Below, one piece after another: positions 8,972 through 17,900 of a stretch of 64,000 bases of DNA; the first letter of the stretch is position 1, and the number at the start of each line of letters is the position of its first letter. The notes beneath the pieces were generated by a model, which was given only the letters and a program-made list of their open reading frames with translations, was not told the origin of the DNA and did no database searches. Origin of the DNA: Hyposmocoma kahamanoa (Eukaryota > Arthropoda > Insecta > Lepidoptera > Cosmopterigidae); contig NW_020653409.1 of the NCBI RefSeq assembly GCF_003589595.1, positions 2,634,984 through 2,698,983 on the forward strand. The letters run 5' to 3'. A program made the translations under genes and the position numbers.

Positions 8972-11900
8972 TTACAACATTCTGTCCAACAATGACCCCT
9001 TAAACTGATCCAATACTTGCTTTTCTAATTCTAACAGTTTTCTTTCTACGTCATCACTTTCTTCGCTTTTTGCTTCTGGAACATTCGAATCTTCAGTTTT
9101 TGTTGCATTTTTGTTGTTTGCATTATTGTCTCCAGGTTTGCAATGTACAATACTAATATCTTCATCTACTTTGACAGTTTCTGGAACCTTCAATTCATCG
9201 TCCGATTCTGTGGTATCGGACACGTTATTAGACTTTTGTTTATTATTTGAACATTCTTCGACGTGGTTTTTTACTTTTCCACTGTCGATAGATACATCTA
9301 CATATTTCATTTTGTCACTCTTCGCGGAGGTATTTATTTTAATCGTAGATGTATTGTCTCTTATTCCATCTTTTAAAGTTTGTATAGGAACAACTGCATT
9401 AACTTCAATCATTGGTATATCAAATTCATCACTATTGCTTAACTTTTGCGTATCACTTTGGCTATAATTTAAATTTGTGATATTATCATTCACTTCATTA
9501 ATTATCACATTCATTTCAGAATTATTTGTGTTACCTTCATGTTGAGAAGCGTTATCTGCTTGAACTAATTCATTAACTGCATTTTGAAATTCTAAGGTAA
9601 ACGATTCTTCAGTATCTTCAGTTTTAAATGCGTTTTCAGGTAAATTGTTGTCATGTATATATTTCATTGTACCTTTGCAAAAATTACCTTCAGTGTTATT
9701 AGTAAAGTTAAACATTTCGTTGCTCACATCATAAGTGTTTGTGTCGTTGTTATGAATACTGGGTACCTTTTGTTCTAGAGCTTCCTGGTTCGCCACTTCG
9801 TTATCTAATCTCCTTTTCTTGGTGCTCTTCACTTTAGTCCCGGTGGGATCTTTATTTTTACGCGATACTTTTGTAGATTCCACCACTGGTGACTCTATTA
9901 TTTCATGAACCTGAAATATTGTAAAAAAGACTGAAAATCGTTTTCAAAAATCATGTGATCACAATGCCAAACCAAATTTATCAAAGTTGGCCCAAAAACC
10001 AGAGCATTAGACCTCTACTATGACATTGACGATGATTAGCAATAACGTAAACAAATTTATTATTATTTATTACAGCGCCACCTAGCATAGGAACTAAGAC
10101 ATTGTTGCGGAACTTGAATGCATTTGCATAGAGTTACCCTACTTGTGTTATTATACTAATGGTACTACTTCTAAAGCAATTGTATTGAAAAACGAGGTTT
10201 TACTTTGCGTTAAACTTACTTGAGGCTTGACAAAAAGCGGGCAAAAGTCATTTCTTCTAATAAGAAAATCTTCCAAATAGGCGTCCAGCAGAAGAGATTT
10301 AGTGAGCATGTCTAAGTAATCTTTTGGCTCTGTTTTGAAGTTATCAAGATTTATTTCGCTGTTCGGGTGTAGCCATTGGTAAATTAGAGACAGTTTGTGT
10401 AGTTCTTCCTGAAAAGTTGATGTATTTTCATTACAATACAATACAACATTATTTCAATTGTCATTTTCCACCTTAACAATACTTTTTAAAGCAAGGAACA
10501 TCGTACATTTACATTGCGAGGTGGAACACTGGTGCCTAAACTAGGTTGGACCTGTATACTATAGGTCACTATTATTATTATATAGATTTTAAGACTTTCG
10601 TGGTTATTCACTAAATGATTATCACTAGTATCAGGTTTCTTACCACGGTATGACTTCTTTTTATTTTCCCGATATTCCCGATATTTATTATAAAAAGAAG
10701 TCATACCGTGGTAAGAAGCCTGATACTAGTGATAACTATTATTATTGTTAGAGTGGGTTACTCCGTCGCTCTAACGATGTTTTATGTAATAATAATAATA
10801 ATAAAGCATAAGTAACAAGCACCAGGATCTCGGTTCCGACTACCTATTTACAGCCTTTGCAGTCGAAACCCTTCATTTGTACAAAATTTTATTCAGAAAA
10901 ATTAATAGACTGTCTGGGAAACCTAAGGGCCGGGTACCTTGCCCAACGCATAGCAATAAGTCTTTTTTACCTTACCTGTACATTATCAAAAAAAAAAAAA
11001 TAAAAAAAATAAAGTCTTATTTAAATTCCAACAAACATTACATATTTCTTATAAAATAAAAATTGTGACACGTAATAAACATAACTTAATTGAATTCAAA
11101 TCATAATTATAAGATTATGTGAAAATTACAATATTAAAGATTAATATTTTCTTTAAACGCGAACCATTCATGATGTTTGTTTTCCATTACGAGTTTACAA
11201 TTATAGCATGCGGTGTTTACCTGTAATTAACTGTTGCACTTAGCATTAAGGCAATATTGTACTTTCCTAGTTGTAGTTTTTGTTTGTCTAGTTGGTGAAC
11301 CAATAAAAAAAATTCAAACTTGTAATTATGACGTTTGAAGACGCTAAAGAATTGTTTTAACAATAATTCTGCCACTGTTCTTTTATCATATCAGGCATAT
11401 ATTTTTTCCCTCACCTTTAAATTCATAGAAGTGACCCAAATCTTGTAATCGGCGTTAAAATTTATCTGCAGCATTTCCTTGGCGATGTGATTGTCGTGCA
11501 CCACCACCATTCCCCAGGTGCGCCGCGAGAACGAGGCCCCGTCTTTCTTGCTGTTTATGTAGATAGAATTCTTTGCAAATGGATTCGAGGTTCGAACTGC
11601 AACTTCTGGAATAATATAAAAGGAACAATTCGCACATGACAACTAACATGGTATTATATAAAAATGGTTTTAATTTATATTCATATTACCTATTTAGTTT
11701 CAAAGCGACAGTATTGTCCTATGACTTTGAAATTAAATCGTATATGAATGACACATCAATATAGCGAAATTTTGTATATAAATTATTAATATAACGCAAT
11801 TTTGAGATAAAATATAATTTAACGCCATTTTTGAGGTTATACTATGTTAGTGGTCAAGTGCGAATTGTAAAAACGATGCCTTACTTTCTCAAATATTACA

Positions 11901-14900: not shown

Positions 14901-17900
14901 TACTGTTTGGGTAAAATTGTAAATTCTTCCCTCACCATGAAAGCAATTGGTCCATATCTCAAAGTGTTCCTTCCAGTTCTGCACGGCGTTGTCGTCGCAC
15001 AGAATGAGAATGGGTTTGTTCAGTGTGGGCCGCATGGCGTGGACGAATAGTACCACTTGGAGGCATTTGCCGTAGCCTGATGGGTCGTTCAGGATCACTC
15101 CTGGGTTTCTCTGTAAAAGTAAATAGAAGAAATTTTATTCAAATTAAACTTAAATGTGTATTTTAAGAAAGGCCTTGGCAGCCTAAGACTAAGAGTATCA
15201 GGGGGTCGATTCCGAATCTTACGATAACTCTGTTGTCAACCGATTCGATTAGACATCGTACGATTTCTTTTAATTTTTATTCGCAATAACCGAATCGAAC
15301 ATCACACGATCGTATTCGAAACCGAACCGAAATGACGTCACACCCGTACGATTACTCGAACTTCTCGACCGGCAAAGGCTACAAACGTTATTCAGAACAC
15401 TGTTATTGAAAGAAAGTTACCGAACGTCCTATTGTTTATAAAGCAAGAATGTAATATGGAAATCTCTTATATTTTAAATAAAGTCTGGATTTTGTTCAAT
15501 TTTATTAGTTTATTTTAATGTACGACTAATACATTCCTATATTTTAGGTTTTTAAAGTGTTAAAAATGTATATAAAAGGATTTTCATTTTTCTTATAATC
15601 TATTTATTAATAAGCGCTGTTGGATAACGATATCGTGTCCATAATCCGATCGAACGTTTAACTCGAATGTTCTGAAGACCTCGGAAAGCGCCCTTCGATT
15701 CGAGAACGATATCCAATCTAACGATTAAAAAAAAATTCAAAATATTTCATTGCTTCACTGTACGTGGCATCATTCAGGGGCTGATGTTTCCTTTTAAGCT
15801 TGATAGGGCCTGTGTTAGGAAACATCGCTCTTCTTTACAATTAATAATTAAACATTGCTCTTACATTAACCTTAATAAACTAAGACTAAATTAACCTATG
15901 TGTTACTTTGTGTGAGTTCATGTCCGTGATATATGCATGAAGTGTGTGTGAATGAGTGTTTGTGTGTGTAAATGAGTGTTTGTGTATGTATGTGTGTGCG
16001 TGTGTGTGTAAATGAGTGTTTGTGTATCGATTTCGGTTGAAATATCGAAGAAAATCCTTTTATGTACATTTTTAAGACTTTAAATTGCATTAAAATAACT
16101 TAATAAAATGGAACATAATCCAGACTTTATTCAAAATAATAAAAGATTTCCATATTACATTCTTGCTTTGCAAACAATAGGACGTTCGGTCACTTTCATT
16201 CGATAACTGAGTTCTGAATAACGTTGGTAGCCTTTGCTGGCCGAGAAGTTCGAGTAATCGTACGGGTGTTGTGAATATAAATGAAATGAAATCGTACGAT
16301 ATCAAATCGAATTGATCGACAAACTTATCGTAAGGTTTTGAATCGACCACCAATTCCGAATCCGAGAAATGACGGTCCGAAATGTCACGGATCATTTTAT
16401 CTCTAGGTGTACATGCAATATTCGAATCGAAGAATCACAACACTCGGGGAAAATGCGAAGTCCCCAACCCGTATTAGGCCAGCGTGGAGAGTGGCGGACT
16501 ATAGCTTAAAACCTTGCCTGTGAGGATACCCGTGCCCAACAGTGGGCTTGGTCCCCTCGTGTGTGATTTATACGTATAAATGGGTTAATGACGAGGATGT
16601 ATTTTAAAAACACGGAACAATTTTTTTTAAATCAAGTTTTATTATAGTATTGTAATATAAAGGCGTCAAAATGGGTGTATAATGTTTATCTATCACTGTA
16701 GATTGCCCTATTTGTAATTGTAAGGCATTCTAGTGGCGGATGTTCATAATAAGAGACACGACCGCACCCAGGAGTGTCGATTTTCATCTGTCCCACGGTT
16801 TTTTTTATATAATACCATGTGATTATTTACTATTGAGAGTTTTCTCTCACACTAGGTCTATGAATGACTAAGGCCTCGTGCAGCGTGGCGGCGATATTTC
16901 GCGACTGCGGTCGCACTTAATCGTCGTAAGTCGCTTGCGACTACTACTAGATGATCAATTAGGCTCAACTCACACTGGCGTCGCGTCCTGTTTTTCAATT
17001 ACAACGCATGGCGACGCGGGTAGTCGCGCGACGACGGCCGAATCAGTGTGGTCGGCATCTGACGCCTCACTGCGCGCAAGGAACGCACGGCGACGCGCGA
17101 TTCCATATTTGCATAACACAAATTTGTACCTTAATGATGGGAAAATAGAGATGAATATGCTATAGGCGAAAAACTTGACGCGTCGCGACGCTTCGACTCT
17201 GCGCCAGTAGAGTTGAGCCTAAGTCATTTCTAGTTAGTGTGGTGTCGTCAAACTTTGGCTTTTATGGAGAACTATCTTCGAAAATACCAAATTCCTTTTA
17301 ACACAGATTTTACTACATTTTTACATATTTTCGAGTTTTAATTAATTCTTTGACAGTAATTGTTTCGGACGAAGAACGGGAGCAGAACCCCCTGAACTGT
17401 GGTACTGTTGGGACCACAGTACAGTTGTAGCCCCTTTCCAACAAAGAAAAAAGAATCATCGAAATCGGTCCACAAATGTCGGAGGAATCGCGTAACAGAC
17501 ACACAAAAAAATACAGTCGAAATAAAAACCTCCTTCTTTTTAACAGACTTCAAACAAGGGGGACGTTCTTAATTTGACTGTTTTTCTTTTTAGTATGTAT
17601 GTTACGCATTTGTGAACCGATTTTGATGATTCTTTCTTTCCTTAGTCCCTAGTCCTTCAGTATTGGTCCCATTTGAATTTCAAGAAAATGTTCCATCTCT
17701 AATGGTGGCAAACTAGGGAATGAATCCGGTTTCGCGCACTTTCAGGTAACCGATTTCAATAAAACTTGGCAAATAGATGTAGTTCCACGAACTTTTAAGG
17801 TCGGTTTTATTTAGTACTCTGTACTGAGACTATTATTTTGAAGTCGGTTAATAAATAAATTTAAGAAATATTACCTTCTTGAACTGCCTGTAAAGGTATC

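Follow-up and report, generated by a model that had tools for sequence, protein, structure and literature searches.

A single-lobed SNF2-derived protein, conserved in moths, has its closest known design in Drosophila SUUR

Remodellers of the CHD1L/ALC1, ISWI and SMARCAD1/Fft3 types remodel nucleosomes, and they carry the DEAH and TGT motifs together with a second RecA lobe holding motifs IV to VI. Suppressor of UnderReplication (SUUR, CG7869) of Drosophila melanogaster, a protein of ~960 amino acids (aa), is known for slowing DNA replication in the fruit fly. The sole conserved domain of SUUR is SNF2-like, N-terminal and predicted to be ATP-defective, and its SNF2-region construct comprised aa 1-278; removal of the domain severely reduced recruitment to replication forks and left heterochromatin binding unaffected, and full-length SUUR, unlike its SNF2 region, brought down Rif1 (PMC6185109). 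Recombinant SUUR hydrolyses ATP in vitro, with a mutant of the putative Walker A lysine K59 (K59A) as the negative control, shows no nucleosome sliding and pairs with Mod(Mdg4)-67.2 (PMC9917439). Here we report a gene found in a 64-kb window, the whole stretch of DNA that was analyzed, of the 728-Mb assembly of Hyposmocoma kahamanoa, a cosmopterigid moth of the Gelechioidea. It encodes a 542-aa protein with an SNF2 N-lobe and no recognizable second lobe, and its closest known design is that of SUUR, a link that is purely architectural.

The gene lies on the minus strand at window positions 8972..18009 and consists of five coding exons, whose joined coding sequence of 1629 nucleotides (nt) including the stop gives a product 100% identical to the NCBI model P0001 (uncharacterized LOC113240052, H. 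kahamanoa). All four introns are GT-AG with matched phases, which bears out an earlier sequence-only reading of five open exons with good splice sites; the interval given in that reading, 11415..15110, covers exons 2 and 3 only. Coding exon 1 (17875..18009, minus; residues 1-45) holds the start codon, placed as in P0001, an N-terminal beta pair and LPQHQLDGIRYLYRQFKK, which we take to be a Q-motif-like helix. To judge from the sequence, where a CAG resembling an acceptor immediately precedes 18022 on the upstream side, exon 1 may start within the 5′ untranslated region. Coding exon 2 (14936..15110, minus; residues 46-103 and the first base of codon 104) is the strongest SNF2 match within the window and encodes motif I, DPSGYGKC with K60, and motif Ia. 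Coding exon 3 (11415..11605, minus; remainder of codon 104 to residue 167) carries HDNH (140-143) at motif II and TSM (162-164) for TGT at motif III, and coding exon 4 (10220..10408, minus; residues 168-230) encodes the helices past motif III, LIRR (216-219) and the end of the N-lobe. Coding exon 5 (8972..9910, minus; residues 231-542 and the stop) encodes the basic motif KNKDPTGTKVK, an acidic tail and a C-terminal helix ending in FKGSLLDRML; with stops as frequent as in the introns, a frame of 312 codons would remain open by chance with a probability of ~5e-9. When the gene was searched against its own genome it matched itself exon by exon, and the next two places (E = 8.9e-5 and 0.013) were both large frames of other SNF2 genes, the first of them with CHD-type remodellers as its best match.

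The 542-aa protein matched PF00176 at E = 1.1e-9 (38.3 bits against a curated cut-off of 24.9), with a weak ResIII match overlapping the same lobe, and a profile (A1) searched against PDB sequences reached CHD1L at E = 4e-8. The lobe has the RecA1 fold of SNF2 motors; the structural superposition included the part of the P0006 model that corresponds to exon 4. In an alignment by hidden Markov model of a four-species profile to CHD1L, the HDNH stretch fell on DEAH, T-S-M on T-G-T and IRR on LRR, supporting the motif assignment of the sequence-only reading, whose GYGKC, HDNH, TSM and LIRR were all read correctly. The alignment also showed DEAH and TGT in CHD1L and in an ISWI-type protein, whereas neither was found in the moth protein.

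The second RecA lobe with motifs IV to VI, typical of CHD1L-, ISWI- and Fft3-type remodellers, was likewise not found in the moth protein. Among at least 74 PF00271 (Helicase C) matches listed for the genome, in a whole-genome search that scores best candidates only, none fell in the window, and the closest on the same contig among those listed was ~99 kb outside it. A tblastn comparison of the window with SNF2 frames taken from five other places in this genome gave matches to exon 2 for three of the five (E 2e-5 to 0.04); nothing else in the window matched at E below 1, and there was no C-lobe match. PF00271 did not match the moth proteins scanned, and in the seven full-length proteins scanned no domain was found past PF00176 and the overlapping ResIII, except for isolated matches of the kind expected by chance, none of them better than E 0.06. 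For four moth proteins, NCBIfam returned three weak matches in two proteins, far below cut-offs. That this is not a two-lobed motor is therefore well supported, as the sequence-only reading had claimed, and the protein belongs with SNF2 N-lobe proteins and not with active two-lobed remodellers.

Homologues were retrieved from Tuta absoluta, Pectinophora gossypiella, Choristoneura fumiferana and three Cydia species, along with one further Cydia-like protein. Choristoneura belongs to the Tortricoidea and Pectinophora to the Gelechioidea; we take Tuta to be a gelechioid and Cydia a tortricoid. With H. kahamanoa this makes eight full-length proteins of 454-566 aa, which amount to about five lineages because the Cydia-type ones are near duplicates (~90% identical where compared). 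PF00176 matched seven of 14 moth proteins scanned (E up to 1), the other seven being tail-only fragments. These are 281-317 aa long, 62-95% identical to exon 5 and uninterrupted to the same C-terminal motif, and probably come from close relatives, judging from their identity. In the annotated Cydia fagiglandana protein (P0005) the Walker A stretch of exon 2 is present in two copies, with K57 and K119, which may reflect a duplicated exon, a slip of annotation or an error of assembly.

A pseudogene in decay, or a mis-annotated piece of a complete SNF2 gene with C-lobe exons elsewhere, would account for the motif loss, the missing lobe and the doubled stretch in C. fagiglandana. Against this, the C-terminal motif is shared by all eight full-length proteins and stands equally far from the stop in each, no Helicase_C match was found in the window, and the complete 456-aa frame of P0008 sits on contigs no longer than 2211 nt, which leave little room for introns and so suggest a spliced transcript (we read the label 'lgn' of its sequence source as Logan assemblies). 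We consider this explanation, already disfavored, to be very improbable. Because the single-lobe design, without DEAH and without TGT at motif III, recurs in all eight proteins, be they gelechioid or tortricid-type, the comparison supports the claim that the gene is retained in two moth superfamilies and is not decaying; the missing C-lobe in particular is common to the homologues.

The ATPase motifs are eroded selectively. All 8/8 full-length proteins keep DPSGYGK and with it the Walker A lysine, and the residue after GK is C, Q and C in the three Gelechioidea and T in all five tortricid-type proteins. The C is thus not a feature of the family, since T stands there in five of the eight. DEAH was found in none of the eight and TGT at motif III within the lobe in none; motif II reads HDNH, HDEH, HDVD, ADTG, DDD or DDE according to lineage, and motif III reads TSM, TAN, TST, THA or TNE. 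HDNH itself is therefore not common to the homologues, although the absence of DEAH is, and the active-ATPase triad of GxGKT, DEAH and TGT was found in no protein, GxGK alone being present in all eight. 'Eroded ATPase motifs' accordingly holds for DEAH and TGT and fails for the invariant GxGK and the DPS before it. Judged by sequence, the ATP-binding core is kept while residues for hydrolysis and coupling drift.

An active or switchable ATPase, in which the Walker A core binds ATP and hydrolyses it slowly, alone or with a partner replacing the missing lobe, would fit the invariant DPSGYGK, the GKT of the five tortricid-type proteins and the ATP hydrolysis by recombinant SUUR with its K59A control (PMC9917439). 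We regard it as unlikely, as DEAH is absent throughout, motif II varies by lineage in a manner unlike a maintained active site, and no C-lobe was found. Even so, 'non-catalytic' is unproven, given that the Walker A core does not vary and that ATP hydrolysis in vitro was observed for SUUR despite the prediction that it was dead.

The tail, encoded by exon 5, spans residues 231-542 (312 aa) and starts soon after LIRR, in agreement with the ~310 residues proposed from the sequence. Its disorder was also proposed; on composition and on low predicted local distance difference test (pLDDT) scores in models that are poor overall, it is probably unstructured. The basic motif lies at 248-258 in H. kahamanoa, and KNKDxTGTK follows the lobe in 8/8 full-length proteins, whereas everything past residue 228 carries a net charge of -13 to -23. 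Tail identity between four species is 13-31%, against 46-58% for the N-lobe. The conserved C-terminal end is a predicted helix, with FKG[ST][LI][LF]D 10 residues from the end in 15/15 proteins retrieved, and no relative of it was found among PDB sequences. Near window position 9685 in exon 5 (past residue 306), H. kahamanoa lacks ~10 residues, VVKFIRNKEN, of its near relative P0009; P0010 has a similar form of the stretch at that place.

As to origin, the sequence-only reading had suggested an ERCC6L2-like remodeller. Among PDB sequences the best matches were CHD1L, ISWI and Fft3, without settling on one subfamily, whereas ERCC6 was absent at E up to 10, though it ties with CHD1L and others in the fold comparison. 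In this comparison, made via ERCC6/CSB, no ERCC6L2-specific feature was found, and an ERCC6L2 origin is not supported by the sequences. The likeness to CHD1L/ALC1, ISWI and SMARCAD1/Fft3 lies in the N-lobe fold, the motif order and the best sequence matches.

The likeness to SUUR is one of plan. The moth tail is much shorter, whole moth proteins having 454-566 aa against ~960 for SUUR. Fly SUUR was not among the PDB or protein-search matches, its ~960 aa lying beyond the length limit for a 542-aa query. In both proteins a single SNF2-like region stands at the N-terminus with nothing recognizable after it (PMC6185109, PMC9917439); the Walker A lysine is residue 59 in SUUR and 60, 63, 60 and 57 in four moth species, and the SNF2 region of aa 1-278 compares with a moth lobe of aa 1-230. 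That the moth protein works like SUUR, more than like any other known protein, we put at slightly short of an even chance. That it is a SUUR orthologue, so that a single-lobe, DEAH-less SNF2 protein would predate the fly-moth split, with an ancestor that slowed replication forks or marked late-replicating chromatin, is a tentative reading that we hold to be rather doubtful.

How such a protein might act can be outlined, and a docking, non-remodelling account as a whole seems to us moderately probable. The conserved gene would supply a single-lobed SNF2-derived protein that, having no second lobe, could not close on DNA as a two-lobed ATPase does and therefore would neither translocate nor remodel nucleosomes. 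Its N-lobe, perhaps ATP-bound, may dock on chromatin or on a replication-associated partner, the basic motif may mediate entry into the nucleus or touch DNA, and a partner may be held by the C-terminal helix, in what would be a nuclear chromatin role. SUUR offers a parallel, its N-terminal SNF2 region being needed for full fork recruitment and its C-terminal part associating with Rif1.

Several observations weigh against a SUUR-like, passive docking protein. The DDD or DDE at motif II of the Cydia-type proteins may preserve an acid that binds metal, and SUUR is called an ATP-dependent motor by its authors (PMC9917439), contrary to a purely passive lobe. The structure model of the H. kahamanoa protein is poor (mean pLDDT 40.5) and gave no structure match at E up to 0.001. 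The likeness to SUUR, in layout, Walker A lysine position and loss pattern, could be convergent: a CHD1L-, ISWI- or SMARCAD1-like gene may have been truncated independently in moths and come to serve an intact remodeller as its adaptor, SUUR having no part in that history. This alternative agrees with the best PDB sequence relatives and with the statement that SUUR is not present outside drosophilids (PMC4006706); the literature searched on SUUR in other insects, including Bombyx, gave no homologue outside Drosophila. It agrees too with the three protein searches, whose named matches were all Gelechioidea or tortricids (the other eight resemble these), with no other Lepidoptera and no flies among them. 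The 566-aa query, with 19 candidates scored, returned only itself and two other Gelechioidea proteins, and a longer list (best 15 of 4055 candidates) held moth-type proteins only. Such a narrow list is weak evidence, however, because the word-based search misses fast-evolving relatives, and the moth protein comes near to SUUR in its layout, in the length of its lobe and in where Walker A lies. Convergent loss is thus a real contender, with the balance somewhat against it.

Elsewhere in the window, exons of Enoyl-CoA hydratase (ECH) lie at 31269-31691, 33414-33797 and 48850-49254 (minus); two are first-exon-like, both GLIQLNRPKALNALC, suggesting two neighboring ECH gene copies. An open 360-aa Tc1/mariner-type transposase frame with HTH_Tnp_Tc3_2 and DDE_3 occupies 44907-45989 (minus). 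A non-LTR (long terminal repeat) retroelement at 56127-60408 (plus) has an open ORF1-like frame of 327 aa and an endonuclease/reverse transcriptase frame of 999 aa, and upstream of coding exon 1, at 19763-20332 (plus), another non-LTR element is represented by a remnant with RNase H and zf-RVT.

With the moth gene the single-lobe plan, in which the Walker A core is conserved and DEAH lost, would be known from a second family, so that either SUUR is older than thought or the design arose twice, and either outcome makes the role of a lone SNF2 N-lobe testable. If the protein were a SUUR orthologue, a controller regarded as drosophilid-restricted would occur in moths, where it would be a copy-number controller for hugely polyploid cells such as those of the silk gland.
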